Source: Candidatus Nitrospira nitrosa
GTDB taxonomy: Bacteria > Nitrospirota > Nitrospiria > Nitrospirales > Nitrospiraceae
Assembly: GCF_001458735.1 (NCBI RefSeq)
Contig: NZ_CZQA01000010.1
Coordinates: 248,001-312,000 of the forward strand
DNA: 64,000 nt
Reading direction: 5' to 3'
The translations under genes were made by a program, and so were the position numbers. Of the stretch, positions 40,059 through 60,296 are shown in pieces. The stretch's first letter is position 1. Every line of letters begins with the position of its first letter. Below the pieces are notes generated by a model that saw only the letters and a list, made by a program, of their open reading frames with translations, did not search any database and was not told where the DNA came from.

Positions 40059-40464
40059 ACAATTTGGAATGCGAAATGCGTAGCGGGCTTAGAATAATGG
40101 CCCAAGGCACCCATTGCAAGCGATATCAATTACTTTGACGAGGACCGGATGCGCAGTAGGCGATCGAACATCGGGACACCCTCCCCTCCGTCCATCCGAA
40201 CAGAGGGCGAATGCGCTGTCGTGATTCAGACCCGAGCTGCAGCAAGAAGCACGCATTGAGAAACAACTGAATTCCCTAACTGCGCCCTCGACGGGGTGGA
40301 TTATTATTTCACCCGGGCCCTGACGATCAATGCAGAGCAGTGAGTAACGCATTCAGCGTCCTTGTTATCCTGTGTAAATCGTTAGGGTACAACAGCCTGG
40401 TCCTATTGATCCAAACCAAGGAGTTGAGATGGGCTATATCTAATATGGTATAGTACAGCCGTCC
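40059..40464. other. Boundary region between flagellar regulon and accessory island
   Basis: No gene is supported here. An 87-codon minus-strand frame (40089-40352) is Cys/Ser-rich with no ribosome binding site and was rejected. The region contains the first copy of the direct repeat at 40270-40342. The probable higBA promoter lies at its right end: TTGAGA near 40424, then TATAGT near 40449, with an imperfect CTATA...TATAG dyad that could be an operator. Confidence 0.5.
40270..40342. repeat. Diverged direct repeat, copy 1 (left of higBA)
   Basis: It matches 41102-41177 in the same orientation. The right-hand third is nearly identical (shared core CCTGACGATCAATGC); the left part is about 70 percent similar by eye. 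The two copies bracket the toxin-antitoxin pair. Confidence 0.7.
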
Positions 40465-40746
40465 ATGTGGGAGATCTACGAACACCGTCGAGCGAGCAAG
40501 AGCCTTGATCGCCTTCCGGTCGAGTTACTGAAATGTTATGAGAAGTGGAAAGACATCGTACGAATCTCAGGCCCTGCCGGTTTACGCCTCATCAAGGGGT
40601 TCCATGACGAACAGCTTCGGGGAGAATGGGAAGGACATCGCTCATCACGATTAAATGCCCAGTATCGAGTGATCTACAAGGTTGAAGCGCAGCGAATCCT
40701 GGTAGTAGTCATGGACGTAACCGCGCACGATTATCGGAGGCACTGA
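40465..40746 (+). CDS. higB: RelE/HigB-type toxin
   Basis: The 93-aa protein has the RelE/ParE superfamily fold pattern: SKSLDRLPVELLKCYEKWKDIV helices, then LRLIKGFHDEQLRGEWEGHRSSRLNAQYRVIYKVEAQRILVVVMDVTAHDYRRH, with basic residues and the terminal Asp-Tyr expected of mRNA-cleaving RelE enzymes. Toxin before antitoxin and a one-base overlap with the next gene match the HigBA order. It is on the opposite strand from the genes on both sides. The exact subfamily is uncertain. Confidence 0.88.
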   Translation: MWEIYEHRRASKSLDRLPVELLKCYEKWKDIVRISGPAGLRLIKGFHDEQLRGEWEGHRSSRLNAQYRVIYKVEAQRILVVVMDVTAHDYRRH

Positions 40747-41012
40747 TGAAAACGAAGGACGTTCGTCCGGCAAAAGTACGGGCTGCGGTGTCGGTAGGCG
40801 AATCCGTTCGGATTGTCCGTGAACTTCAGGGGTTCACGCAGAGCGAACTGGCTCGCAGGACCAAAATTCCACAGTCCACTATCTCAGCGATCGAAAACGA
40901 CACCATTAATCTGGGCGTCGAACGGGCCAAGATGCTGGCGCTGGTGCTGCAATGCCACCCAGCCGTCCTGGTGTTTCCAGGCTGGGATGTGAACAAGCAG
41001 TCCGCTGCTTAA
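40746..41012 (+). CDS. higA: HigA-type antitoxin (XRE helix-turn-helix)
   Basis: The 88-aa protein has an XRE HTH (VRIVRELQGFTQSELARRTKIPQSTISAIENDTINLGVERAKMLALVL) and a short C-terminal tail. It overlaps the toxin gene by one base (TGATGA region), so the two are coupled. It should neutralise the toxin and repress the promoter upstream of 40465. Confidence 0.9.
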   Translation: MKTKDVRPAKVRAAVSVGESVRIVRELQGFTQSELARRTKIPQSTISAIENDTINLGVERAKMLALVLQCHPAVLVFPGWDVNKQSAA

Positions 41013-41101
41013 CCACCGATCGGCAATATTCAGCTCCGTCCACTCGCAACTCCTCAGTACGATACCAGAGCTGACCCTACCTTTTTTTGTAGAATGAACC
41101 A

Positions 41102-41177
41102 AATTCTCTAACCGTGCGATCGACGGCAGCGGATGTTTTTCTTGCACTCGGGGCCTGACGATCAATGCGGAGCGGTG
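41102..41177. repeat. Diverged direct repeat, copy 2 (right of higBA)
   Basis: Second copy of the 40270-40342 repeat, located between higA and the 3' end of the NPYG-repeat gene. Confidence 0.7.
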
Positions 41178-41187
41178 TGTGGATCTA

Positions 41188-41496
41188 TTACTGTCCTTCG
41201 ATTCGCAAGCCACGGCCGTAGGAATTGGTGGGACTGTCAGAACGATACGGGCTGCCGACGCCGTACGGGTTGTTGATGGAATCTTGGGAAAACCGCGAGC
41301 CGTATCGGCCATAGGGGTTGCTGGTTGAGTCCGTATCATACGGATTGGCGCTCAATTTGCCACGGTAGTTTCCCTGCTGATCATAGAGCCATGGCGCGTC
41401 AGTCGCGAAGGGATTCCTCGCCGATTGATTGCTGAAAGGGCTGCCGTAGGGACTGAAGGCAGTGGACACGCCAGATTCCAATAAGTCGATAGTCAT
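41188..41496 (-). CDS. Small NPYG-repeat protein of unknown function
   Basis: The 102-aa product consists largely of short repeats built on Asn-Pro-Tyr-Gly: NPFATD, NPYDTDSTSNPYGRYGSRFS, then SINNPYGVGSPYRSD and NSYGRG. It is rich in Ser, Asn, Tyr and Gly, lacks a signal peptide, and is likely mostly disordered or beta-turn-rich. Similar short Tyr-Gly-rich proteins occur as hypothetical proteins in other bacteria by my recollection, but I know no function. There is no strong ribosome binding site, yet the ordered repeats make a chance frame unlikely. Confidence 0.7.
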   Translation of the reverse strand: MTIDLLESGVSTAFSPYGSPFSNQSARNPFATDAPWLYDQQGNYRGKLSANPYDTDSTSNPYGRYGSRFSQDSINNPYGVGSPYRSDSPTNSYGRGLRIEGQ

Positions 41497-41713
41497 GCCT
41501 GACCCTGAATCTGCGTGTTGGTCTTCTGTTTATAGTGCAGCAGTTTCATTATAGGTTCCAGCCACCAGAGGGTACTTCGAACCCTCTATGATTTTGAGAG
41601 TTTGGATCGTGGTGAGTACCGCGTCGGGCTTGTGCCTGACGAGCTATTCGATCGCTGCTGTTCATGATAGCTCCACAACATACTTTGCCGCCTCTCCATG
41701 CGGCATTGAGCAC

Positions 41714-42088
41714 CTACTCCCTGTCTTTCCCGGTTAACTGAAACTCAAACAAATCGCAAGCCGTAGCAATGCCTCGCAAGTACACCAAGAACTCGTCAGC
41801 GGTCAGACCGGCACCAGGCACCCACGACTCGCCCACTAAGCGCCCTCGATCATCGACTCGAAACCCAACGAGGCTAACGGCGCGGTTGCGATACCAGGCG
41901 GCCAGCGCTGGATTGTCTTGCTCATCTACCATGGCGCGCCGTGCGATAACGGCGCGTAGTTCAACAGCCTCACCCTTTGACGCAACATCAACCCGATGCT
42001 GACGCCCACGGCCAAGCGTAACCACAACGGCTTCACCGTCAATCTGAACGTCCTGCGCTCCTGTGCAGAGTTTGCGCCAATCAATCAT
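41714..42088 (-). CDS. Small protein, last gene of the helicase-PLD operon
   Basis: The 124-aa protein starts inside the end of the helicase gene (4-bp ATGA overlap). It has an alternating beta/alpha pattern (RQHRVDVASKGEAVELRAVIA, then VSLVGFRVDDRGRLVGESWVPGAGLTADEFLVYLRGIATACDLFEF) that resembles YbjN or type III chaperone-like folds, which act as small binding partners. That resemblance is by pattern only. By position it is probably an accessory or regulatory subunit of the system. Confidence 0.8.
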   Translation of the reverse strand: MIDWRKLCTGAQDVQIDGEAVVVTLGRGRQHRVDVASKGEAVELRAVIARRAMVDEQDNPALAAWYRNRAVSLVGFRVDDRGRLVGESWVPGAGLTADEFLVYLRGIATACDLFEFQLTGKDRE

Positions 42089-45000
42089 TCTTGGCTTCCA
42101 CCTTCACGAAGGAGTTCCTTTCGAAACACACCGAGCAACTGGTCACGCCCCAGAAGATGAATCAGCTCGAGTCGATCGGCCTCTTCAGCAACACGCCGAA
42201 GTAGCGCCCTTGCACGAGTCGCATCATATTGGGGCTCTGCAAGCAGAACGTCCTCCTGAACCGTGAGGTTGTAAGAGCCTTGGTCGCATTCCTCCACTGC
42301 ACCAAGACGCACACGATGCGATGCGACACTAGATACGATTGCTTCGAGCATGTTAACAAAGTCAACGATGCCGACAGGACTGACACACCGAAGCAGTAAC
42401 CGGCTCCCGAGAGAATCAAGGAAGAGCGTGAATGGCTGAATACGTCCACTGTTCAACTTCATAGTCCCGAGCAACTGCCCGGAATGGAGGTCTGGTGACC
42501 ACTCGATGCTCAGCAGGTTCCCCATGAGCCACCGCAATGATTCAAGCCGCTGAATGCTGGTCATAGCAAAATCCGGCGTTACGTCGAGCTCTTGGACTTC
42601 TCCCTTTAATACGTCCTTTCTAATTTGAAAGGCCGATTCGAGCCTCTTCGTGATGACCTCGACGGGCCGACGCCCTCGGGCAAGAGTCTCCTGAACATCG
42701 ATATGTTTGTCCTCTGACTCGTTTGTGCCCAATCCCTCATGCATGAGGCGGAGAAATACGTTCATCCGTTCGAGTATGCGTTCGACCTGCAAGATCTCGA
42801 CGGTGTCCTGAAGGTGCGGGAAGTGTACCTGCAGTAGATCCTCTCCATCAGGCGCTCGTTGGAGATCCGACAAGCGCCGATCCGTCTGAGATCGCACGCG
42901 GTCAATTCGACCAATCCGCTGCTCCATTGACGACGGCGTCCATGAAATGCCGTAGTGATGAATCGAAGAACAGAATGTGTGCAGGTCTTCACCTTCCTGC
43001 AACAAGTCCGTGGTCACCAACACGAACGGATACCCGGGCATTCTGAATTGCTGAACAAGCTGCTTGCTCACTTTTCCAAACATTCCACCAACGGGTTGCT
43101 GTTGCCCCAACAGCGTTCCAAACAGCCTGGCCACCTCGCTAAACGTCTTCGCCCGAACCTCAGGTACATTGACATCGAGCACCAACCGGAAGTTCGAAGC
43201 CACCTCGCGCAACTCATCGAACGCCGCCCATCGGCGATTGGACAACGAAGTCACCCTCTGTTGCTCGAGCCTTTCGAGATATTCCACAAGCCGACGCGAC
43301 TCCAAGTCCGAGCCTGCATCGTCATCTGACTCCAGACTCCGCAGAGCGAGGGTCTTCAGGCGCCCGATGGTCAGCAGGTAGATGTCGATTAGACCGTGTC
43401 CGAGCCGAGCCGTCGTTGCCAACATTTTCGCCCTGAGCTCTGACTCTTGGAAACTATCCTGTAGCTCTTCTTTCGCTGATTGCGGCCAGAGGTCCATACG
43501 CAGGGCCTGCCATTGGGGCTTGAGCAATTCGGTAAAGAAAGTCCGCTCCTCAAGGCTCGGCAAAACATCCAAGGGCTGGTTCGCAGCCGGCCTCTTAGCT
43601 TCGCTCAGGTAAACCTGCCCGAATACCAGTCGTGCGAACTCAGCCTTTGTGCTCTTACTCTCGCCCAGAAGTTCAAGCGCGGCGGCCTGAGCCGCAACGA
43701 AACGGGCGTATGCCGAATGCTTGGTCGCCCGGGCACTCAGAAAGCATACCGCGCGCTTTTGAATTTCCGCCTTGAGTTCCGCCCGGGAGTATCCCGTCGC
43801 CAAGGCCAACCCGTCCACCACCTGACCCGGCTCAACGGTAAGCACCTCGGCCACATGATTTCTCTCGAAGAAGCTTCGGTAAGCAGATCCAGACCGAATG
43901 AACCGTTGGGCAATGCGTGCACCGCTGACAAACCCCTTCGGCCCCTTACCCCGGAAGAACCAGGCGAAAAACGTGTCTGTGCCTCCCCGATTATCCTCGG
44001 AATCATCAGCAGCCTCCATACTCCCTGTCATTCGAGCTTGCCGAGCCTCGTCAATCGCCTTCTTTTCTGCGCGGTAGCGAACCACAGCGGAATCGAACGC
44101 ACCTGTTACTTCTTGCGGCAGATTCTCTCGGAGGTACGGAATGAGCCACTTGTCGTACCGCTCATCAAGTTTCTGTTTCAGTTCCTTGACCGAGGCAACT
44201 CGGCGGACAAACACCAGTGTCTTCTTGCCTGTCAGCCACGCCGTTGAGAGAGCCTCAACCACCTCATCCATCTTGGGATGTGGAAGGTGTTCCTGAAAAC
44301 GATTGTAGTAGTCTTGAGCGAGGCGATTGACATCCTGCACGTCAAGCCCTTCCTTGACCGCTTCACTGAGGTCCCGAGCCTGGTCTGGATCATCAAAGTT
44401 GCTGGTTTCATCGTCCCGTCGCAACTTGCTGGTCTGCAGAAAACTTTCGAATGAGGCAAGCATACCGATTTGGAACGACATGTTGAACTTACCCGACCCC
44501 AGAAGTTCAGCCACCTTCTTCTGTACTAACGCCACGACAAGTCGCTTCCGAGGATCCGTGACCTTGATTGCCTTGTCGTGCTCGAGAACGCCGCCCTGCC
44601 GCCACTCACGACGGTACTGGTTCTTGGTCAACTCAGCGCCGTTGACTTGCATCGAAGTCACCCGACGAACAAGAAACCGGGAGGCCGTTTCCTTCTTTGA
44701 CTCGTCCGTGACATCGCGTTTCTTCAATTCGGTGTAAGGCCCAGCGATACCGAACACATCCAACTGATTCCAGAGTTGCTGATACGATTCCTCGATCGGC
44801 GTGGCGGACAGAAACAATACTCTCTTGGCCCTTCGACCGTAGCCGGGAAACAACCTGGGATCCGCCTCGACATCTCGGCCCATCGCCAGGGCCAGCATTC
44901 GATTTCTGGCGGCGACACCCTCGCGGAAACCATGCTTCAGTTTGTGCCCCTCGTCAATAATCACCAAGTCAAACGATGGAATGGCACAGCACACCGCACG

Positions 45001-45561
45001 CGCATAATTGTCCTTGAAGGCCTCTTTACTTCGGAGGACGAACACCTCATCGGCCAACCAAGGCAGTTCACACCGAATCTGCTCACGTTGAACCTTCCAG
45101 CCTTCCTTGTCGCCCTTCAGCCCCATGCTGAAGGACGTCATCCTGAGAAAGAAGTCCCGGCGCGCGTCTACACCGACTTCGTGAACGAAACTGTGCAGGT
45201 TGCTGCACAACACCATCGGTCTGGCCGGCCCGCCTCGGATGGACTTCACGCGAAGATCAGGGAACCGCACATTATTCGCACAGAAATTGCCAAGCTCCTT
45301 CATCCATTTGTTCTGGATATTCTCGCTTGGCGCGATCACCAGAACCCGGAACTCCGGATTGAAATGCCTGAACACTGCCATCGCGCCAAGAGCCACATAG
45401 GTCTTGCCCATGCCAACTTCGTCAGCAAGATAGGCTACATTGTACTTCTCTAAAATATTGTGGATAGCAACGGCTCCCTCAAGCTGTTCATCAGCTCGAC
45501 GGCCTTCGCCAATACTGGCGCCGAAATTGAGGAGCTGCCCGGCGGCTTGGAGATTGATCAC
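42085..45561 (-). CDS. SNF2-type helicase of a putative defence operon
   Basis: The 1158-aa protein is a superfamily-2 ATPase of SNF2/RapA style: Walker A ADEVGMGKT (46-54), DEGH box (203-206), SATP (252-255), and late in the protein the motif V/VI block (TTDLLQEGEDLHTFCSSIHHYG, then SSMEQRIGRIDR). Between the two ATPase lobes there is a long insertion of about 350 residues, and a C-terminal extension of about 250 residues follows. It would translocate along DNA or remodel protein-DNA complexes. It overlaps the PLD gene upstream and the 124-aa gene downstream by 4 bp each, so the proteins are probably made in fixed ratio and act together. Confidence 0.92.
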   Translation of the reverse strand: MINLQAAGQLLNFGASIGEGRRADEQLEGAVAIHNILEKYNVAYLADEVGMGKTYVALGAMAVFRHFNPEFRVLVIAPSENIQNKWMKELGNFCANNVRFPDLRVKSIRGGPARPMVLCSNLHSFVHEVGVDARRDFFLRMTSFSMGLKGDKEGWKVQREQIRCELPWLADEVFVLRSKEAFKDNYARAVCCAIPSFDLVIIDEGHKLKHGFREGVAARNRMLALAMGRDVEADPRLFPGYGRRAKRVLFLSATPIEESYQQLWNQLDVFGIAGPYTELKKRDVTDESKKETASRFLVRRVTSMQVNGAELTKNQYRREWRQGGVLEHDKAIKVTDPRKRLVVALVQKKVAELLGSGKFNMSFQIGMLASFESFLQTSKLRRDDETSNFDDPDQARDLSEAVKEGLDVQDVNRLAQDYYNRFQEHLPHPKMDEVVEALSTAWLTGKKTLVFVRRVASVKELKQKLDERYDKWLIPYLRENLPQEVTGAFDSAVVRYRAEKKAIDEARQARMTGSMEAADDSEDNRGGTDTFFAWFFRGKGPKGFVSGARIAQRFIRSGSAYRSFFERNHVAEVLTVEPGQVVDGLALATGYSRAELKAEIQKRAVCFLSARATKHSAYARFVAAQAAALELLGESKSTKAEFARLVFGQVYLSEAKRPAANQPLDVLPSLEERTFFTELLKPQWQALRMDLWPQSAKEELQDSFQESELRAKMLATTARLGHGLIDIYLLTIGRLKTLALRSLESDDDAGSDLESRRLVEYLERLEQQRVTSLSNRRWAAFDELREVASNFRLVLDVNVPEVRAKTFSEVARLFGTLLGQQQPVGGMFGKVSKQLVQQFRMPGYPFVLVTTDLLQEGEDLHTFCSSIHHYGISWTPSSMEQRIGRIDRVRSQTDRRLSDLQRAPDGEDLLQVHFPHLQDTVEILQVERILERMNVFLRLMHEGLGTNESEDKHIDVQETLARGRRPVEVITKRLESAFQIRKDVLKGEVQELDVTPDFAMTSIQRLESLRWLMGNLLSIEWSPDLHSGQLLGTMKLNSGRIQPFTLFLDSLGSRLLLRCVSPVGIVDFVNMLEAIVSSVASHRVRLGAVEECDQGSYNLTVQEDVLLAEPQYDATRARALLRRVAEEADRLELIHLLGRDQLLGVFRKELLREGGSQE

Positions 45562-47606
45562 GCCTCCGCCTCCTGCTTAACCGGCTTTGCCCGCTTCAGA
45601 AACCACTCTTCGAACCATAGAAGGAATTCGGCCATTGTGCGGTTCTTACCCTCACTCAGCCGCGCTCGCAGTTCGACTGCGATACCAAGTTGTTGCTCCA
45701 GCCGCTTAGCCTCCTCAGGATGCTTACCAAAGAAGTGAGGCCAATCATTACGCAGCTCTGTGACCATCTGTCTAGCGCAGAGCGCCATCACATAGTGCTC
45801 TATCAGATTGTCGGTGTTCTTAGCTCCATCGTCTTGAATACGCGTGAGAAGGCGCCCGAGTGAGTCGTACTTCTGCCCAAACATGCGATACTCGGCAGCC
45901 CGATCCTTGCCGGCAGCCAGCGACTCTCGCACGCTCTGCTCAAGCTGACCGAACGAGATGAAGATTCCGGCAAATCGGTCGAAGAAACTGTCGCGATCAT
46001 CGAGACGCTCGTGCTTCGCCACCAGGTCAGCACCTTCGCCCGTCAGCGCAATCTCTGGCGCGTGAGCCTCGAGGAACGCGGCTCGCTGCTCCGTCGTTAG
46101 CAACGACCAGTAACGCAGGATCTCCGCCGGCGTGAGGTCGAACAGCAGCGACGGGCGCTGGGTCATGCCCTCTTCCTGGACAAGTACGGCAGCAGGCTCG
46201 GGACGATCTCCTTCGACCATGAAGATGGACGTAGACTGAAGCGTCCCCTTTATCGCGGTGGCATTCGAGGTCTCCAACTGAACCCACTGCCTTGCTAAGA
46301 TCGGGTCGACGGCAAACAGCGGTACGCCGCCCCGCGAAATCTGAAGCCGCGGCGACTTCTCTCCACTGTCCCAGTAGGCCTCCGCACGTTTTGAATCCCA
46401 CCAGTACCGAAGCGACAGCCTGGAACCGGCTGTACTAGCAGCGCCTTCATCCTCGCCCCGAGGCTCGTAGATCGTTGGTTTGGTTCGGTCAGCCTCCAGC
46501 CACCAGTCCGGACGACAAACTGGATCTAGCTCAACGAGAAATCCGGTCTCGAGGTTGCCTCCTTTGCGATGCGCGGGTCCAGTCAGATTGACTGAACCCA
46601 CGAATAGATACTCGCGCTTCGGGTTAGCTTGAAAGAACCGGTATACCTTTGCATGCACTGTCCGGGACTTCACGTCGTCCGACTTGCCGCCACGAATCAC
46701 ATCTTTCGGCAGCCGGCCCCAGCTGACATCTGACTGTAATCGGACCCATTCGAACAGCTCGGCCGAACACAGTGCCTCGCCGGTCTCCTTCCGCGGCAGG
46801 AACACCCGCACTTCCTTGGGAGCAAATTCGGCAATGAGGTCGCTGAGCGGCTTCGATTCAGGGCCAGCGTCGAAGTAGGGCGAGATTACTTCGAGATAGA
46901 GACCATCGATCGCGCTGCCTGTGGCCTCCCGAATGAACTTGGGCACGGTTGTGGTGCCGTCAAAGAAGTGGGTGTGGAGCCGCCCGCCGGACGAACGCAC
47001 AAGGCGTTGGTCCGTGGTGCGCAGGAAGCTCTTGATTGCTTTGATTGACGCGTGCCCATCCGCGGCCTTATCGCCCGCCTTTCGCTCAAGACCCTCGAGG
47101 AAGCGGAACAGGTCTTCCTTGAGACGGGTACCTTCGCCTTGAGCAATTGTCTCAATATGACAAACCTCGACGTTCTCCCACCAGCCAGCACGCGTCAAGT
47201 TCGCAGACATACATGCGACCACGAGCGACTGGGCGCGGTGGCCGTCATTGTCGGGGTCCAGCTCTTCGACGAGGGCAAAGACGTTTTTGGGATGAAAGAT
47301 CCCTGTGCGGTGAACGATCGGAACTCGCGACACATCCTGCCGGGCTGGTCCTGCATTAGGAGCTAGGCCGTTCTGGTCGTAGTACACCGCAACCCGGTGG
47401 CGAACGTCCTTTAGTACGTCCTCCAACTGTACACGCCGGATCGCCTCGGAGTGACTTGTCGCCACATTGAGGAATACCGGAAGTACTTGCTGCTCAAAGA
47501 ACTCCGGCTCGAACCGAAACGTGACAAACACCGCGGCCAAAAGGCGCCGACCGCCGAGGTGTTCTTCAATCTGCTCAGAGAGGACTGCACGGGGAATGTC
47601 CGGCAT
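45558..47606 (-). CDS. Phospholipase D-family nuclease of the putative defence operon
   Basis: The 682-aa protein carries two HKD half-sites: His105-Pro-Lys107 followed by SANLTRAGWWENVE (134 onwards), and His318-Ala-Lys320 followed by GSVNLTG (337 onwards). The SANLT form is typical of PLD-type nucleases such as BfiI-like and NgoFVII-like enzymes rather than lipases, so DNA cleavage by a single-chain active site is likely. The C-terminal 300 residues are helical and unassigned. The gene begins 3 bp after the stop of the 432-aa gene, with GAGGT upstream. Confidence 0.9.
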   Translation of the reverse strand: MPDIPRAVLSEQIEEHLGGRRLLAAVFVTFRFEPEFFEQQVLPVFLNVATSHSEAIRRVQLEDVLKDVRHRVAVYYDQNGLAPNAGPARQDVSRVPIVHRTGIFHPKNVFALVEELDPDNDGHRAQSLVVACMSANLTRAGWWENVEVCHIETIAQGEGTRLKEDLFRFLEGLERKAGDKAADGHASIKAIKSFLRTTDQRLVRSSGGRLHTHFFDGTTTVPKFIREATGSAIDGLYLEVISPYFDAGPESKPLSDLIAEFAPKEVRVFLPRKETGEALCSAELFEWVRLQSDVSWGRLPKDVIRGGKSDDVKSRTVHAKVYRFFQANPKREYLFVGSVNLTGPAHRKGGNLETGFLVELDPVCRPDWWLEADRTKPTIYEPRGEDEGAASTAGSRLSLRYWWDSKRAEAYWDSGEKSPRLQISRGGVPLFAVDPILARQWVQLETSNATAIKGTLQSTSIFMVEGDRPEPAAVLVQEEGMTQRPSLLFDLTPAEILRYWSLLTTEQRAAFLEAHAPEIALTGEGADLVAKHERLDDRDSFFDRFAGIFISFGQLEQSVRESLAAGKDRAAEYRMFGQKYDSLGRLLTRIQDDGAKNTDNLIEHYVMALCARQMVTELRNDWPHFFGKHPEEAKRLEQQLGIAVELRARLSEGKNRTMAEFLLWFEEWFLKRAKPVKQEAEA

Positions 47607-47609
47607 CGC

Positions 47610-48908
47610 CTATACCTCAAGCTCTTTCGTAACAGTTCGGAGCGAGTCCAGGAAGTAGGAATGGATCCAATGCGTGGGCAGATCTTTCTTCGTCGGCAAA
47701 TAGCCGGTTTCTACGGCCAACTTCACATGTAACTTGCCATCTCGAATTTCCAACCACGGCGCCGCGCCTCCGCGCATCACCATTACTTCGCGGTTCTGGT
47801 CGATGAGCTGCGTGATGACCTTGGCATAGTCTCCTTGCGCCAAATCCCCGGCAATGGTCAGCCACCGCCGAGCAGACTCACGCTCGCCGGAGGCGCCAAT
47901 TAGTTCAGGCTCGATGGCCTCGAGGGCTTTTGGATCCACTGACCGAAGTTCGGGTCCCCACTCCTTACGAATAGTGACGGCCACGTCATCAAGGCGCTGG
48001 TTATCACTGCTCAGGGAATAAGCAAAGAGGCTCACGCATGGAGCCAAGAGTTGCTCCGCGAGCCTGATGTGCTCGAGGTAGTCGGCCACTTTCCTGCCGG
48101 TGTCGCCAGACTTGGCACGACACTGCTTCGCCAAGTGGCTCACCACAACCGGAGAAAGCTGCCAGTCTTTGACGTCGAAGGTCGTCTTCATTGCCTCGGC
48201 AAGAAGACGCTGGCCGCCCTGAGTTGAATCTTTCGGGCCTCCCTCGATCAGGTGTCGGACATACAGGGAGCGCTCGGCGCTGCTGAACTTCCGGCGCAGC
48301 ACTTTGGCAACGGAGCCGAATAACACGCGGTCCCGATCTTTCGGTCGCAGCTCGACCGATCGTTTACCCAGAATATCGACCAGCCCTTCCCCGCGTGCCA
48401 TCGACTTTCCGTCAAGAACTGGGAGGTAGTTCTCCTCAACGAACTGCCTGGCCTCGGCTGTCAATCGGGTTGGGCTGCCCTCAACGAGACCTGAGGATCG
48501 AGAAGGCACGCTATAAAGACCCCAAAGCCCGTAGGTCTTCTGATCGCTAAGGATGAAAGAGCCAGAGTCCGCTCCAAGCCGAACTCGGTCGGCCGAGTTC
48601 CAATAGTTCTTCGTACGCTCAGTGCCACGGAACGCCCAATCGTTGTTCCCTCCACCTCGTGCATATGCCGATAGCTGCTCCCACCGCAGGAAGACGTTGA
48701 GATCGTCACTGGCGGCCGTCTCCTCAGCCACGCGCTCGGCGAAGTAGTAGCCGAGCATCGTTACAGTGAAGTCCCGGACGGAGGTGCTAACAGTCGTTAG
48801 GTTGCCAACAACGTGCCTGCCCATGCGGGTCCAGATGGACTGAACGCCAAGTGGATCGCGGGAGCCCTTGATGGCTGCGCGCGAATCGAGGTCGGTAAGA
48901 AATGGCAT
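47610..48908 (-). CDS. Unknown 432-aa protein, first gene of the helicase-PLD operon
   Basis: I do not recognise this protein. It is soluble and mixed alpha/beta, with an aromatic-rich region near residues 85-135 (WEQLSAYARGGGNNDWAFRGTER, then SDQKTYGLWGLYSVPSR) that is unusual and may be a binding surface. The rest is helical. It has no signal peptide or obvious catalytic motif. As first gene of an operon with a nuclease and a helicase it may be the sensor or specificity subunit, but this is inference from position. Confidence 0.85.
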   Translation of the reverse strand: MPFLTDLDSRAAIKGSRDPLGVQSIWTRMGRHVVGNLTTVSTSVRDFTVTMLGYYFAERVAEETAASDDLNVFLRWEQLSAYARGGGNNDWAFRGTERTKNYWNSADRVRLGADSGSFILSDQKTYGLWGLYSVPSRSSGLVEGSPTRLTAEARQFVEENYLPVLDGKSMARGEGLVDILGKRSVELRPKDRDRVLFGSVAKVLRRKFSSAERSLYVRHLIEGGPKDSTQGGQRLLAEAMKTTFDVKDWQLSPVVVSHLAKQCRAKSGDTGRKVADYLEHIRLAEQLLAPCVSLFAYSLSSDNQRLDDVAVTIRKEWGPELRSVDPKALEAIEPELIGASGERESARRWLTIAGDLAQGDYAKVITQLIDQNREVMVMRGGAAPWLEIRDGKLHVKLAVETGYLPTKKDLPTHWIHSYFLDSLRTVTKELEV

Positions 48909-48916
48909 CGAGAGCT

Positions 48917-49145
48917 TTATGGTTTATATTTATATTTGAGCTTGACCCATTTCGGCGACCAGTGCGGCATGGCCCATGTTTCGCAGAAATGGCTGATCGG
49001 GATTACGGTGCCTGGCACACCTAACCCAGGATATGCGAAACTGATACCAGTAACGGATCGACGTACCTTCAGCCTTATGGCGCAGTTCTTCCAGTAACTC
49101 TTCAGCAACCGAACGAGGCCGCTTTTTGTCGGTGGCATCACGCAT
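48917..49145 (-). CDS. Possible small gene, perhaps frameshifted, before the operon
   Basis: An ATG at 49145 opens a frame with a credible start (MRDATDKKRPRSVAEELLEELRHKAEG). After about 30 codons a different frame looks more protein-like and ends at 48917 (GVPGTVIPISHFCETWAMPHW, then KLKYKYKP). One indel near 49050 would join them into a 70-75-aa protein. The ATG overlaps the end of the upstream nuclease pseudogene. It may be a decayed or frameshift-controlled small gene. Low confidence. Confidence 0.3.
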
Positions 49146-49818
49146 CAGAATTCCCTTTGAATGCCTTGTCAAGAATGGAGGCTAGCGGCGCATCCTGTTC
49201 GGCGTCGTGCTCAGCCTTTGGAGATGAGGCGGAGCCTAGTTCACACCAAACAAAGTAGCCTGCCCCGTTTTTCTTCCCTCAACGGATATCGAGACCCTGC
49301 TCATTCATCCATAATGCCGTGGTGGTGATCTCTTTAGAAAAGTCAGCAGAAACGAGGACTAATCTGACGACCTCGGCAAATCGTCTTTCCGCTTCCTCTT
49401 CCCACCCTAAGAATTCTAGAATCGCCTCTTTGGCATTGGCAAAGGAGCCTCGTGAATGAAGATATTCTTCATGGGCCTCGACGGCTTAAGCGAACGTCAT
49501 GGTCGATACCATTGCGGCGTAACGGAGGGCCTGTAGCTCCATGTGCCCGCCACTATCGGTCAGCTTGAGTTCCACAACCACAAGGTTGGCATCCTTGTCG
49601 AGAACCAGCAAATCGATTCGTCGGGACGAATCTTCCCATGAGCCAAACTCCTCAGCAAGCACCATTCCATCTTCAACAACAATGTCAGTTTGGTCGCGAA
49701 AGAGACGCTGAAGATCACCCCGTTCTTTGAGGTGTATCTGTTCGAACTTTACTGGTTGCAGCAAACGAATGCCGTTGTTTTCAATGGAGTGCCATGCCAA
49801 CCTCGCAGGACTGATCAC
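49138..49818 (-). pseudogene. PD-(D/E)XK-like nuclease pseudogene with in-frame stops
   Basis: The first 110 codons (49818-49486) read as the N-terminal part of a NucS/DUF91-like nuclease, with RRIDLLVLDKDANLVVVELK containing the D...ExK catalytic pattern. A TAA at 49486-49488 interrupts, yet the same frame continues with clearly protein-like sequence (AVEAHEEYLHSRGSFANAKE, then GWEEEAERRFAEVVRLVLVS). It then meets a second stop (TGA after GLDIR, near 49278) and continues to 49138 (APLASILDKAFKGNSDA). A segment seems missing at the second stop. Two stops in one otherwise intact frame mark a recent pseudogene. It may once have belonged to the adjacent defence operon. Confidence 0.75.
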
Positions 49819-50545
49819 ACGACTCCAGCAATTGCTCTCTGCAGAATAGCAAGTTTCTTTGAGCTGTAAATCTTTAGTGGATTTGGAGGCTGCAGGTTCT
49901 CTTACAATTTCGGGAGATTACTGAATCGCCGGTGATTTGGACATCCAACAAGGTTCGGCAATGGGATACGCCGTTCTCACCAAACCGGTTGAGATAGGGT
50001 AACGATTTAGCAAAGAGTGCTGCCGAATAAGTGGCCTATAATTAAATCTCACGTTGCGTACCGTGCAACCCGCCAACAAAGGTATCCGCCACCTTTGCTC
50101 TTCTCCTCATGCCTATGAATGGTTATCGCCAAAGCGCTTAGTACCAGGTAAACGGGGATGAACGTCCGGCTTTCGGTCCGGCGTTGTTTACGGATTCTCG
50201 ACATGCAGTTTGTTTTTCCTGAGATCAGACAGGGGGCCATCTTATTGCCCGTGCTGTGCGAACACCGAGACGGATATGATCAAGATCGTTGGCTTAGCCG
50301 ACGTGTGAGCGTGATTGACAATGACACTCTGACCTAAGCGTCCCATGAAGTCTCAATATTGAGGGGCGCGAATGTCAACGTCGAGTGACTCAAGTCAGTA
50401 CACCACAATGCCCAGCTTTCTCGCACCGGCTAACAGTAGCTCCTCAGTGATGATGTAGTGGATGGCAGGGGTAAACCAGCCTTCGAACGTCGACCGGAGT
50501 TCATCGGTAGGGATGAACTCGAGCTAAATTGCATAATATACAGCT
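49819..50545. other. Non-coding region with gene relics
   Basis: No intact gene. A minus-strand fragment at 50395-50523 reads like the end of a protein (STFEGWFTPAIHYIITEELL, then GARKLGIVVY and a stop) but has an in-frame stop just upstream, so it is a relic. A short dyad GTTGC...GCAAC lies near 50053-50069. The probable promoter of the nuclease pseudogene must lie near 49830-50000. Confidence 0.45.
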
Positions 50546-50571
50546 CATATTGGCTTGATTTAGCTAATATG
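50546..50571. promoter_or_regulatory. Dyad operator candidate upstream of hipB-like gene
   Basis: A 26-bp dyad with arms CATATT-n-GCT and AGC-n-AATATG (6-base centre) lies 18 bp before the ATG at 50589. A second dyad, GAGCT-N16-AGCTC (50521-50546), abuts it. Paired dyads before an XRE-type antitoxin gene suggest autorepression. Confidence 0.5.
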
Positions 50572-50588
50572 ACTAGTATGTTGGTCAC

Positions 50589-50867
50589 ATGCTAACCATG
50601 CCTTCTATAGGGGAAGTGATCGCGAAAAAGCGCAAGTCGCTGGGCTGGAGTCAGCCCATCCTGGCGAAGAAGGCCCGAGTGGCACGCTCCACGCTCGAGG
50701 CGTTGGAGAATGCGCGACTGGGCAAGCTCGGCTATTCGAAGATCACCAACATTCTGACGGCGCTGGGGCTGGAACTTACCCTGCAGGACTCCCGTACGCG
50801 CCGCCTCAGGCTCGACGATCTGATGAACGAGGCGCCTGATGATCAAGGTCTGGACCGACGCCGCTGA
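50589..50867 (+). CDS. hipB: HipB-like XRE regulator/antitoxin
   Basis: The 92-aa protein has a compact HTH (IGEVIAKKRKSLGWSQPILAKKARVARSTLEALENARLGKLGYSKITNILTALGLELTL), close in style to HipB and related antitoxins. The partner gene hipA should follow and does so only as a fragment overlapping its 3' end. With no toxin left, it may now act only as an autorepressor or be a remnant. The ATG at 50598 is an alternative start. Confidence 0.8.
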   Translation: MLTMPSIGEVIAKKRKSLGWSQPILAKKARVARSTLEALENARLGKLGYSKITNILTALGLELTLQDSRTRRLRLDDLMNEAPDDQGLDRRR

Positions 50868-51012
50868 CGTTGGCCTACGGAATGGCTTCGGCGCACGTGG
50901 CAGTACCTTCGCCTCTCAGACCAAAAAGACCATCCGAATTTCGAAGCCATCGGCACCCGCATGCTGGCGCAATGGGAGGAAGGCATGGTCACCTCGCTTC
51001 GTTCTTACCTGA
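50839..51012 (+). pseudogene. hipA: hipA fragment
   Basis: A frame starting at ATG 50839, inside the end of hipB, opens with MIKVWTDAADVGLRNGFGARGSTFA, which follows the HipA N-terminal pattern (VWTDG...G..L...G.RGSTF). Similarity then stops and the frame ends at 51012. In another frame, about 50925-51093, the sequence NFEAIGTRMLAQWEEGMVTS is protein-like and could be a piece of a different or shifted gene. An internal deletion has removed the kinase part. Confidence 0.65.
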
Positions 51013-51098
51013 GCGAAGTCGCGAAGAGAACACGACTGGAACACTTGACCTCAAGGCTGAGAGTCTGTAAAAGTGTACCGCTTTCAAATCATTGAGAT

Positions 51099-51174
51099 GC
51101 TGGCGTAGCTCAATCGGCAGAGCAGCGGTTTTGTAAACCGCAGGTTGGAGGTTCGATTCCTCTCGCCAGCTCCA
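51099..51174 (+). tRNA. tRNA-Thr (anticodon TGT)
   Basis: The 76-nt sequence folds as a standard tRNA: acceptor arms GCTGGCG and CGCCAGC, D-arm with GTAGCTCAATCGGCAGAGC, anticodon stem-loop GCGGTTTTGTAAACCGC with TGT, T-arm GGAGG TTCGATT CCTC. CCA is encoded. tRNA 3' ends are common integration sites, but I found no second copy of its 3' end in the window. Confidence 0.95.
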
Positions 51175-52301: not shown

Positions 52302-53039
52302 ATGCCGGAAACTAACTTCCTACGCCTCAGTGAAGCGACTTTTCAGCCCAATGCAACTCTAGCGCCCTCTCCTCAAGCATTAACGAAAAAGACTACGGCT
52401 ATATTATGGAATCCGACTCTCATCAACTCTTCTGCAAGCGTACCCGAGACGGAAGCTCCCTTCCCTATCTGTCCTCAGACCGAGCCGACCGATACGGTGA
52501 TCTATAGAGACGGCAAGGATCCTTCAAAAACATTCCTCCTCCAGCGATATCGCCTACGCGACTCGCAAGGGCGCTACGAAATTGCGATCAAGCTTGAAGC
52601 TGACAGTTTATGGTCGATGACATTTGGTCTTGCACCTTACCCCGCCCCCGAAGTCGCAGAAACGGCACGAACAAGCCAACCGCTTCCGCACAAAACCACG
52701 TGGTCTCTCCGATATGTCATGGCTGGGACAACCATGGAGAAGGAGTTTCAAGCTTTTGCCGTTACACCAGATCCGAACGGTACGGTCATCGAGTTTCGTC
52801 TGACCCTTGCGGAGCGAGACGCGGTGTTACGGGCCTTCGGGAAAGATGAATCCCAGGCGCGCCTCGTCGTGATGCGTCAGATCGACGTCTGCATTCCTAC
52901 GCCCCCCAAACCTGGGGGAGGTAGCCCACCCCCAATTCCCTTCAACCTCTTTGTGCAAAGACGAAAGACCGTCGCTCTCGACACCGCAACAATACAGCCT
53001 TTGATCCTTTCCTCTACGATGAGGAGGGTGCAGCCATGA
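52302..53039 (+). CDS. Array protein 1 (245 aa), unknown
   Basis: First gene of the three-gene unit; GGAG lies 9 bases before the ATG. No signal peptide or membrane segment. The central part (FLLQRYRLRDSQGRYEIAIKLEADSLWSMTFGLAP, then VIEFRLTLAERDAVLRAFGKDESQARLVVMRQI) follows the same strand-then-helix pattern as a module in the later genes, but is smaller. A Pro/Gly hinge (PTPPKPGGGSPPPIP) separates a short C-terminal tail. It overlaps the next gene by 4 bp (ATGA). Function unknown; I propose membership in the same superfamily on the basis of pattern and context only. Confidence 0.8.
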   Translation: MPETNFLRLSEATFQPNATLAPSPQALTKKTTAILWNPTLINSSASVPETEAPFPICPQTEPTDTVIYRDGKDPSKTFLLQRYRLRDSQGRYEIAIKLEADSLWSMTFGLAPYPAPEVAETARTSQPLPHKTTWSLRYVMAGTTMEKEFQAFAVTPDPNGTVIEFRLTLAERDAVLRAFGKDESQARLVVMRQIDVCIPTPPKPGGGSPPPIPFNLFVQRRKTVALDTATIQPLILSSTMRRVQP

Positions 53040-55039
53040 GAACTGACGACAGAGATCGAGAGGAGATTAGAAGGGAACAAATGGCTGTGCGCCCGCGATT
53101 TCGACCACAAGAGCCTTTCGAACCACTCCCGACTCGCACTCCGGTCACGCCGCCGCCTGAGGTCCGCATCTCTGTCCCACTTGATGGCTTAAACCTTCAG
53201 CAAGACTGGGCATGGTGCAAGAAGTGTGAAGGGCTATTTTTTGGTCCCGGTGTCTCAAGCTCACGGTGCCCTATTGGCGGAACACATACCCCGCCGTTGG
53301 AGAGCCAAAGTGGCAACTACAGTCTCCCCTACAATGCGGCGCCAGATCCATCACGACAGAGTGACTGGCGGTGGTGCAACAAGTGCCAAGGACTATTTTA
53401 TGGTCCTGGTGCCGCTAACTCGCTATGTCCCGCAGGTGGCACACATGCTCCAGCAGCAGAAAGTGGTAGCTGGGACTATAGCCTCCCACACAATGTAGCT
53501 CCGAATACATTTCGCCAGAGTGATTGGCGATGGTGTAACAAATGTCAGGGATTGTTTTATGGGCGATATGTTGCGAATTCTGCTTGTATGGCTGGAGGCA
53601 CGCATGCTCCAGCAGCAGAAAGCGGTAGCTGGGACTATAGCCTCCTAGCCAGCCCCTTCATTGATCCGAGGGTGACGCCCCCCCCAGTTCCACCTCCACC
53701 ACCGAGGGTCCTATCATCCAGTCGCACTCTTGTCGATACCGTAGCATTACGTTTTGATCCAGTGACACATCCATACATATTTTCAGCAGGTGCAGGAACA
53801 CAGGGAGGAGCAGAGGTCGAGCGCATTGTGCTGCGCTATCCTCCCGATGGTCCCAATGGCCGTCAACATTCTTACTTTCGTGACCAAACTAAACCCAACC
53901 GGTTCTTTTTCCTCCCGGACTCCTTCAAGCTTGCACGAACACGAATCGCACCATTCGTTCCAGCAATGACGATCCGCCCTGTGCAGAATGAGAATCCTGA
54001 ACAGAGGGACCTCATTGAGATTTTTGCCGAACTACGGCCTGACCTCGATGGAGCACGCCTCCTTGCCGCCAAAGTTGCACTGAGAGCTCACATTCCTGTC
54101 TCTAGCGCAACGACAGGCAATGAGCCGGAGCTGGAATCGCTGACCGCGCAAGCCCAGGTAGAACTAAGTGTATTACGTTCAGGTCTGGTACAGACCGTTA
54201 AAACAGATTCTCTTGTCGATCTCGGTAACGGATTCTCAATCCACGAGTACGTCGCTCAAAAAGATTTTCAACAGATCTTCGCAGCACTTAAATCCACACG
54301 CGATGTGCCGCTGTTTCGTGGCCAAGTGGTTGTCTCGACGGATCTCAGTGCACCGGACCTTATCCCAGTGAATATCCGTTTCGCCGATATGGAAGGCGAA
54401 GTCTTTCTGTACAAGGAGCAGACCAACTCAACTGCCGGAACGGTCACAGCGACATTACAGAACGCTACAGAAAGTCCATTCGGGATTGAGGCTCTCCCCG
54501 TTTGGCTCAGGCGTGCCGGCGTTCAGGTGCAGGGTCGAATCGATGGCCTCGACCTCTCTACACCGGTCGTGCTTCAACCCAGTGCTAGTATCGAGATAAC
54601 TATCCACCCCTCACAGTCTCTGCCGGGGGAGGGAGGTATTGATGCAATTTTTGACATCAGCCAGATCCATGGCCTACCAGACCATAAGAAAATCTGGGAC
54701 TACATTATTGACGAATCAGTACTCCCTGCCGGGTCACGAACAATCACCGTGAGCGGGGCGCCAACCGCATTCGCCGAAGGCCAGCCACCGGATGAAAGGG
54801 TCACATCAATCGGTCTTGAGTTTCAAAACAACGTGACCGTGACTCTTGATGCTTCACATCTCAATACGCAGGTCTCTGTTCCAACCTCACTGTACGAACA
54901 GCTGTTCCCCAGTACTCCTCCCAAAACTACGCCCTACTGGTACCGCCAGACGATTTTCTACGAATCCGGTCGCATAGCTGATTCGGACTGGCGTCAGGAC
55001 AACTCTGCCTTTTTGCCGGTTCCCAAAGGAGGCAACTGA
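53036..55039 (+). CDS. Array protein 2 (667 aa) with three Cys-x-x-Cys repeats
   Basis: A basic, Pro-rich N-terminus (1-55) leads to three tandem repeats of about 53 residues (57-210), each with W-x-W-C-x-K-C-x-G-L-F, then C-P-x-G-G-T-H and a Y-S-L ending. The Cys-Cys-Cys-His set looks like a small zinc-binding or disulfide-knit module; similar repeats occur, by my recollection, in actinobacterial proteins of unknown role. A polyproline linker follows (VTPPPVPPPPPRV). The C-terminal 430 residues are beta-rich and begin with a segment containing RFFFLPDSFKL, the FYYLP-like motif of the array. No signal peptide. Overlaps genes on both sides by 4 and 1 bases. Confidence 0.85.
   Translation: MRTDDRDREEIRREQMAVRPRFRPQEPFEPLPTRTPVTPPPEVRISVPLDGLNLQQDWAWCKKCEGLFFGPGVSSSRCPIGGTHTPPLESQSGNYSLPYNAAPDPSRQSDWRWCNKCQGLFYGPGAANSLCPAGGTHAPAAESGSWDYSLPHNVAPNTFRQSDWRWCNKCQGLFYGRYVANSACMAGGTHAPAAESGSWDYSLLASPFIDPRVTPPPVPPPPPRVLSSSRTLVDTVALRFDPVTHPYIFSAGAGTQGGAEVERIVLRYPPDGPNGRQHSYFRDQTKPNRFFFLPDSFKLARTRIAPFVPAMTIRPVQNENPEQRDLIEIFAELRPDLDGARLLAAKVALRAHIPVSSATTGNEPELESLTAQAQVELSVLRSGLVQTVKTDSLVDLGNGFSIHEYVAQKDFQQIFAALKSTRDVPLFRGQVVVSTDLSAPDLIPVNIRFADMEGEVFLYKEQTNSTAGTVTATLQNATESPFGIEALPVWLRRAGVQVQGRIDGLDLSTPVVLQPSASIEITIHPSQSLPGEGGIDAIFDISQIHGLPDHKKIWDYIIDESVLPAGSRTITVSGAPTAFAEGQPPDERVTSIGLEFQNNVTVTLDASHLNTQVSVPTSLYEQLFPSTPPKTTPYWYRQTIFYESGRIADSDWRQDNSAFLPVPKGGN
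53206..53650 (+). repeat. Tandem 159-bp coding repeats
   Basis: Three repeats encode the W-C-x-x-C modules. The last two are nearly identical in DNA; for example a 43-bp stretch starting at 53443 recurs at 53602 with two or three changes. This indicates recent duplication or strong homogenisation. Confidence 0.8.
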
Positions 55040-57534: not shown

Positions 57535-57810
57535 TCGCCATCTTCTTTCGTGATGTGAGAGCATATTTCAGCCGCCCTCGACAGACCTTGGCTTTTCGAC
57601 CAGAGGCGCATGCGAGACCTGCCCCCGATCCGCCAGAATGGTAAACGAACCTCCGCACCTTACTCCCACCCTTGTGAGCAATCTTCGCTCAACCAGCGAC
57701 CAAACTCCTCATAACAACATATCCTCATCTGGTTACTCCGCTATCGATATGCCGGATGGTGCACAATGCCGTCATGCCCTCACGACCAATATACGAGGCT
57801 CCCGCAAACT

Positions 57811-57849
57811 GTATCTTTTTAGATCCCCCCCCTGAATCTATTTCGATAC
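57811..57849. promoter_or_regulatory. Paired dyad boxes upstream of the second array unit
   Basis: GTATCTTTTTAGATCC (57811-57826) is the reverse complement of the 51941-51956 box except for one base. GAATCTATTTCGATAC (57834-57849) is a related box. Start-to-start spacing is 23 bp. They lie 236 bp before the ATG at 58086. Confidence 0.6.
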
Positions 57850-57919
57850 ACCAAACCGCTCCACAAATATCGCACACGATAAACTCCCGAGTTTTCACAG
57901 GTCACCCATATTAATCTAC

Positions 57920-57935
57920 CGGCATTGGGCTTGCA
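57920..57935 (+). promoter_or_regulatory. Sigma-54-like promoter before the second array unit
   Basis: CGGCATTGGGCTTGCA has GG-N10-GC spacing and matches the flagellar sites in style. The leader to the ATG at 58086 would be about 140 bases, longer than at the flagellar promoters. A single site could be chance. Confidence 0.4.
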
Positions 57936-58085
57936 GTACATACGTACGTACATTTTACATAGCCTTTGTTTGACCTAATGCCTATAGTTGCCGACACTGC
58001 AGCCGGCATTTTCCGGCATTAAAAAGACGAACATGAGAATCCAGCACCTAGTGCACTTCATACATCAGAAGAAAGGAATTCTCCC

Positions 58086-60275: not shown

Positions 60276-60296
60276 CGCAGAAGGAGAGCTCTTGCC

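Follow-up and report, generated by a model that had tools for sequence, protein, structure and literature searches.

The window analyzed here, a 64,000-nucleotide stretch of Candidatus Nitrospira nitrosa (contig NZ_CZQA01000010.1), carries a four-gene operon, transcribed in the order A, B, C, D, that we identify as a diverged relative of the candidate defense system PDC-M27. An earlier note on this DNA, made from the letters without database searches, had described four genes separated by a 3-bp gap and 4-bp overlaps, and coordinates of the open reading frames (ORFs) agree exactly, with 3 bp between A and B and overlaps of 4 bp each between B and C and between C and D (Table 1). All four frames are open and the overlaps are intact. 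The proposal that these genes act as one unit is borne out by a genome scan for the A family, in which A to D recur together and in the same order at 16 of 45 other loci from several phyla, so the operon is not a chance arrangement. PADLOC, Pfam, and NCBIfam found no methylase and no DUF1998-type helicase among the four genes, as the note had also observed.

Table 1 Features at and around the operon, in window positions.
Feature	Position	Strand	Description
Gene A, 432 aa	47610..48908	minus	PDC-M27A relative, mostly helical, possible DNA-recognition subunit
Gene B, 682 aa	45558..47606	minus	PLD-superfamily nuclease, two BfiI-like half-sites
Gene C, 1158 aa, GTG start	42085..45561	minus	SNF2-family helicase/translocase
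C-terminal extension of C, residues 985-1158	42085..42609	minus	YbjN/type III secretion chaperone fold (predicted)
Gene D, 124 aa	41714..42088	minus	YbjN-family protein, probable partner of the C extension
Accessory segment with operon	41013..50939		Ends approximate, from comparison with relative G086 (stretch L095)
RelE-type toxin and HTH antitoxin, two genes	40465..41012	plus	TIGR02385 30.2 bits, cut-off 27.9; same place in G086
PDC-S11 candidate defense protein remnant, 110 aa	49486..49818	minus	E = 7.5e-49, positions 4-103 of 347
HipB-like gene	50589..50867		TIGR03070 35.1 bits, below cut-off 71.65
tRNA-Thr(TGT)	51099..51174	plus	Insertion neighborhood; close to NtrC-type gene in relatives

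The operon is a diverged PDC-M27 relative in a four-gene subtype, with three of its genes in the order seen in the Azaca system. Models for the three components of PDC-M27 match adjacent genes, A at E = 3.2e-21 (PDC-M27A), B at only 2.1e-8 (PDC-M27B, a weak match behind its best hit, ZacB, at 3.2e-19), and C at 5.6e-83 (PDC-M27C), all judged by E value without PADLOC’s own score thresholds. D matches no PADLOC model at E ≤ 1, and that search therefore returned no known system with all four families, in keeping with the earlier expectation. D does belong to the YbjN family (PF10722, 28.8 bits, Pfam gathering threshold 22), and the previous description of the first and last genes as unassigned thus no longer holds for either A or D. 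The further suggestion of a system not yet described stands insofar as the operon is defense-like and identical to no catalogued system, but A, C, and weakly B are already in PADLOC as PDC-M27.

The 45 loci of the genome scan divide into 26 of the window’s subtype (L027-L052), assigned by an identity of at least 41% or by the presence of D and the C extension, and 19 canonical loci (L053-L071), to whose members the window’s proteins are 15-25% identical. A also matched three plasmid records. Two of these were opened (Rhodoferax and Vibrio) and carry canonical PDC-M27 in A-B-C order, where the matches to the M27A, M27B, and M27C models cover nearly the whole length (E ≤ 5e-172 for A and B, 0 for C). 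The same four genes as in the window occur on two viral-collection contigs, L022 and L023; the match scores of L022 equal those of the Bryobacterales locus L029, and these two were counted as one. L022 and L023 are near-identical but, as assembled, differ in the helicase (L023:4947-8511 vs L022:4947-8522), where the main frame of one ends early, without the C-terminal chaperone-fold domain.

Gene C scores above the Pfam cut-offs for Helicase_C, ResIII, DEAD, and SNF2-rel_dom and has the Walker A, DExH, SAT, and motif VI elements of SNF2/SF2 helicases. Its alignment places Walker A at K53, invariant in 4 rows, followed by DEGH and a motif VI reading QRIGRIDR. Helicases of the window’s subtype are longer than most canonical ones, which measure about 870-1020 aa with one of 1191 aa. 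The last 174 residues of C were modeled at a pLDDT of 81.4, and the top Foldseek matches of this extension are E. coli YbjN (6vu7) and AmyR (probability 0.99-1.00, E about 4e-3, TM 0.39-0.46), with START-type folds ranking after them at lower probability. VIA-align aligned it to the CesT entry 5z38 with a Z of 12.2, and its first 34 rows, all with Z of at least 8.2, are secretion chaperones, YbjN-type proteins, and a few uncharacterized proteins; the next row falls to 6.1. The predicted structure thus has the YbjN/type III secretion chaperone fold, a match well above those to unrelated folds. Across 17 members of the extension, no Pfam family matched more than one. A profile of the extension matched all subtype helicases whose C-terminal end is complete (those of 17 genome loci and of the window, training rows included) and 0 of 19 canonical helicases.

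The occurrence of D is tied to this extension. Among the subtype genome loci, 16 have a complete C with 1.6 to 4.5 kb of sequence past its end, and D comes directly after C in every one (16/16), as part of the same frame in L046. D is adjacent to C in 0 of 17 canonical genome loci with a whole C and in neither of the two plasmid loci (0/19 total). Eight of the other ten subtype loci lie on contigs that end within the operon or no more than 20 bases from C (L028, L034, L035, L037, L038, L039, L043, L049), and the remaining two (L033 and L051) are broken copies without C and without D. Counted by genome, 19 of the 20 with the subtype match the D profile, against none of the 10 with canonical loci. 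In three of those 19 (holding L034, L038, and L043) A’s contig is cut and D lies on a separate contig, and the sole D-negative genome is G393, where the contig of locus L037 breaks off within B. PF10722 itself matches 6 of 17 D homologues at E ≤ 0.1, and D is its only match in the host genome. In a Vicinamibacteraceae metagenome-assembled genome, C, its extension, and D are fused in-frame into a 1434-aa frame (L046:13326-17630). D marks a clade of PDC-M27 relatives, and because extension and D occur together, the chaperone module may have been gained or lost as a unit.

Each system of this clade has two predicted chaperone-fold domains, one on the motor and one free, which makes a heterodimer of D and the C extension a natural expectation, and the two are probably a pair. 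The heterodimeric chaperone SycN-YscB is among the VIA-align matches of the extension. One tentative alternative, which we regard as possible and no stronger than that, is that the complex is the same but D and the C-terminal domain serve purely in assembly and folding, or inhibit a self-toxic nuclease-helicase, with no sensing. Loss of D would then leave the operon toxic or unstable. This would suit the strict tie between D and the long helicase, and a relative of YbjN in Deinococcus, DR1245, binds the SSB-like protein DdrB and was proposed as its chaperone (PMC3575483). Canonical PDC-M27 and the Azaca loci seen here, however, do without D.

Gene B has the paired HxK/SxN/E half-sites of BfiI-like PLD nucleases. 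The residues of both half-sites, H105-K107-S134-N136-E147 and H318-K320-S338-N340-E353, do not vary among 35 rows, which suggests an intact enzyme. Pfam PLD models match B only below cut-off. The sole solved structure matched by the 35-row family profile at E ≤ 0.1 was BfiI (2c1l, 6.6e-8), over the second half-site, which shares the HxK...SxN...NxE motif order of that PLD restriction enzyme. BfiI cuts DNA without metal. B differs from it in having two half-sites in a single chain and in lacking an identified BfiI-type DNA-binding domain; recognition would come from A.

Gene A has a confidently predicted fold without a close solved match. Its AlphaFold2 model, built on a 41-row alignment (pLDDT 91.9, pTM 0.89), is mostly helical and matched nothing at E ≤ 0.001 in Foldseek searches of the PDB and of viral structure models. 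No Pfam family matched A at E ≤ 1 or more than one of 41 A members, and a sequence search of solved structures with A and D gave no credible match. The best VIA-align row was the FokI recognition region (Z 5.1, rmsd 6.3, 174 aligned) and MarR-type winged helices followed at a Z of about 4 (4.1), both below the tool’s meaningful level. A FokI-like fold is a weak lead for A. A recognition role is plausible in that FokI-like triple winged-helix modules are described for DndG and SspB of restriction systems (PMC10853773).

In a tree of B, all 19 D-bearing rows fall on one side of a branch with SH-aLRT support of 99 (L034 and L038 labeled from their genomes), and span Acidobacteriota, Myxococcota, Planctomycetota, and Pseudomonadota. 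This distribution over four phyla favors lateral spread. The window’s rows group with canonical rows with Azaca outside, at a support of 38 for the canonical group; this is a quick tree, flagged by the tool for long branches and unusual residue composition. An ISL3-family transposase lies between A and B in Rhodopirellula solitaria (L034:11343-12578), an apparently inactivated copy of the operon. Some loci of both subtypes have, upstream of A, a DUF2779 gene (L022:127-1641 by Pfam, L025:3073-4575 by annotation, and L043 and L067 by BLAST cluster with L025) that might be an accessory component.

The surroundings of the operon had been described as a toxin-antitoxin pair, a pseudogene remnant, and a hip relic beside a tRNA gene, and all were recovered, namely the RelE/HTH pair, the PDC-S11 remnant, the HipB-like gene (with no hipA-length ORF beside it in the ORF list), and tRNA-Thr. 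The distance from the NtrC-type gene to tRNA-Thr is ~168 bp in the relatives G032 and G066 vs 11,040 bp in the window. G086 (L095) has the toxin-antitoxin pair at 90% identity and the tRNA-side stretch at 84%, but none of the four operon genes finds a match there. Nor did blastn of the four genes match the stretches of eight relatives (L092-L099), of which L094 and L098 are without a whole tRNA and L099 is short. When the PDC-M27C model was run against 59 genomes of the genus and order, 22 had some match, with the window’s at 7.2e-59 and no strong match in the other 58 (best 3.6e-7, generic helicases). These comparisons together mark the operon as accessory DNA inserted close to a tRNA gene, in a ~10-kb segment that is apparently mobile. 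No second exact copy of the tRNA 3' end was found within the window down to 18 bases, and no recombinase was identified in the segment, where small ORFs were only partly scanned.

Among congeners, the NtrC-to-tRNA-Thr interval (window 40059-51098; relatives L092-L099) ranges from ~0.17 kb to 11 kb, as in a variable insertion site. In G087 an exact 45-base second copy of the tRNA-Thr 3' end lies ~14.5 kb past the tRNA (L096:17372-17416), as expected of a tRNA-integrated element. To the right of tRNA-Thr, window positions 52302-62582 hold five plus-strand ORFs (245, 667, 831, 729, and 761 aa) with no Pfam match at E ≤ 0.01, the 667-aa ORF containing three copies of a W.W-C-KC..LF-type repeat. 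Rfam at gathering thresholds found only the tRNA and no other RNA element between 38000 and 53000. A promoter and terminator scan of 41300-49600 gave 7 promoter-like sites (2.8 expected) and 6 terminator-like sites (8.1 expected), and was left unused.

With a broken defense gene adjoining the operon and broken operon copies elsewhere (L033, L034, L051), the window’s copy might itself be a degenerating relic like the PDC-S11 remnant. The four open frames with their intact overlaps and the catalytic motifs present in B and C speak against this, and we consider such decay very improbable.

Some related loci lie next to other defense genes, of type I restriction-modification or of Druantia-, Zorya-, or BREX-like kinds. 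Seven of 10 flanking proteins, picked by eye as likely, match PADLOC at E ≤ 1e-10 and three have no match. The neighbors include type I R, M, and S beside L031, a DruE-like protein at L032, a ZorD/DpdE-like protein at L044, PglW at L038, and BrxC at L034, and BLAST clusters place an HsdR-like gene at nine loci and a DruE-like gene at three. The expected enrichment near defense genes was found for HsdR-type genes. The 20 subtype genomes contain 56 Pfam HSDR_N matches, a number that predicts 0.16 in the loci by chance, whereas such a match is present at four of the 20 loci (L031, L037, L045, L048; Poisson 2.6e-5); this is the only family controlled and it was chosen after being sighted near the loci. 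It supersedes a control (3 seen, 0.13 expected) whose profile was built from the counted neighbors and may miss copies. The DruE-like giant helicases (~1750-1920 aa) lie 1.4 to 4.5 kb upstream of the system at L032, L036, and L040, in two Planctomycetota and one betaproteobacterium; one is DruE-like by PADLOC and two by BLAST cluster.

Two further explanations were considered. The operon could serve DNA repair, recombination, or RNA-polymerase recycling and merely travel with defense genes, as might be suggested by the distant NCBIfam similarity of C to RapA, alongside that to DpdE and DrmD, and by a DUF2779/RNase H-like gene with weak Cas4 similarity upstream in L022. Its patchy distribution across phyla, the 58 related genomes without a strong match, the defense-type neighbors, and the relationship of B and C to Azaca proteins all oppose this explanation, which we judge improbable. 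The complex could also act on plasmids or conjugative elements instead of phages, or in competition between carrier elements. Canonical A relatives on three plasmid records are consistent with such targets, as is a serine recombinase gene downstream of the operon in Bryobacterales L029 and likewise, by position, on viral-collection contig L023. We view this alternative as unlikely.

On balance we favor, as reasonably probable, a horizontally acquired complex against phages or other mobile DNA, formed by a four-gene PDC-M27 subtype that is a cousin of Azaca. Our best reading of the sequence comparisons is a methylase-free, DNA-attacking defense complex with a chaperone-like gate, with an anti-phage role as a candidate function. 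A, helical with possible winged-helix parts, would recognize DNA or a DNA state, and C, given its SNF2 motifs, would engage the DNA and translocate. B, with its BfiI-like active-site residues, would cut, perhaps metal-free as BfiI does. D, a YbjN-family protein, would pair with the predicted chaperone-fold domain at the end of C, and the pair might bind a peptide, which could come from B itself or from a phage protein, and in this way dock or gate the nuclease. The triggers and targets of the complex are part of this proposal. As the operon has no methylase, self and non-self would be discriminated through DNA state or a peptide signal and not through modification by its own proteins, unlike in classical restriction-modification. 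More speculatively, D and the C extension may form an infection sensor that captures a phage-protein peptide and licenses the SNF2-PLD machine to destroy invader DNA. This version is doubtful, although if true, discrimination would depend on a protein signal instead of DNA methylation.

Several points weigh against the defense-complex reading and its gate. The neighboring proteins were hand-picked and the positional control is limited to HsdR. The C extension has no Foldseek match at E ≤ 0.001, and its comparison with the D profile is suggestive at most (E = 0.001, probability 21%); their pairing is something we infer. The structural similarity behind a recognition role for A is weak, with FokI ranked 13th in Foldseek (E 2.8) and Pfam HTH families matching 0 of 41 A members. 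We found no experiment on PDC-M27 in the literature, and PMC12988326 describes most PADLOC candidates of this kind (PDCs) as unvalidated.

The closest known system is PDC-M27 (M27A-M27B-M27C, a PADLOC-DB 2.0.0 candidate), which has the same three genes in the same order. Its canonical loci differ in that D is absent and the helicase lacks the chaperone-fold extension. No main-text mention of PDC-M27 was found in the literature (supplementary files were outside the search), and the four-gene subtype with coupled chaperone-fold domains was absent among the literature matches listed. Within those matches the only relevant item joining YbjN or chaperones to defense was a prediction of TY-chaperones in ADP-ribose-linked conflict systems (PMC9503650). 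The YbjN/AmyR/DR1245 family and type III secretion chaperones are likewise related, as D is a Pfam YbjN member and the C extension is predicted to have the same fold. What sets the operon apart is that one such domain forms the end of a helicase and the other is encoded by the adjoining gene.

The pairing of a PLD nuclease with an SNF2 helicase had been called DISARM-like. The similarity stands, with C resembling DrmD (5e-17) and B resembling DrmC (3e-4), both far below NCBIfam equivalog cut-offs, but DISARM is a more distant cousin than PDC-M27 or Azaca. C matches a DrmA model at 2.3e-10, more weakly than M27C, and a methylase, DrmA, and DrmB (DUF1998) are all missing from the operon’s four genes. 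The similarity of helicase and PLD protein is only distant, and DISARM membership was ruled out.

Azaca (ZacA-ZacB-ZacC) was reportedly described experimentally by Millman et al. in 2022. It has the same gene order, with similar sizes in three longer stretches (L100, L101, L103), and the operon has both a ZacB-type PLD protein and a ZacC-type helicase in that order. B matches the ZacB profile at E = 3.7e-16 (probability 98.7) over about its first 360 residues, and the C profile matches ZacC at 1.5e-28 to 1e-26. In the same stretches the A and D profiles match nothing at E ≤ 10. ZacA is DUF6361 in the two tested, a family for which no paper was found. Within the phylum to which L057’s genome belongs, ZacA was detected in 6 of 299 genomes; a separate search of five genomes gave none. 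A matches neither the ZacA model nor DUF6361 at E ≤ 1, and straight membership in Azaca was set aside for that reason. A profile comparison of A with ZacA is suggestive at most (E = 0.001, probability 22%) and aligns the motif DPLG..IW...NLTTVS.SVR with DELG..IRD...FPGTSTI.TRA. Azaca is listed as PLD-containing (PMC10952713), ZacC is given as SNF2 (PMC10925250), and the mechanism of Azaca is stated as unknown (PMC10482375).

We read PDC-M27 and Azaca as probable sister kinds, a link that PDC-M27 now acquires along with an anatomy for its catalogue entry, consisting of a nuclease with two half-sites, an SNF2 motor, a protein A whose fold is confidently predicted, and a clade-limited pair of predicted chaperone-fold domains. 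The strict association between D and the extension of the helicase offers a handle on how a methylase-free, restriction-like complex may be kept in check. The three-gene PDC-M27 candidate is already catalogued; the four-gene subtype with its coupled chaperone-fold domains is new here.

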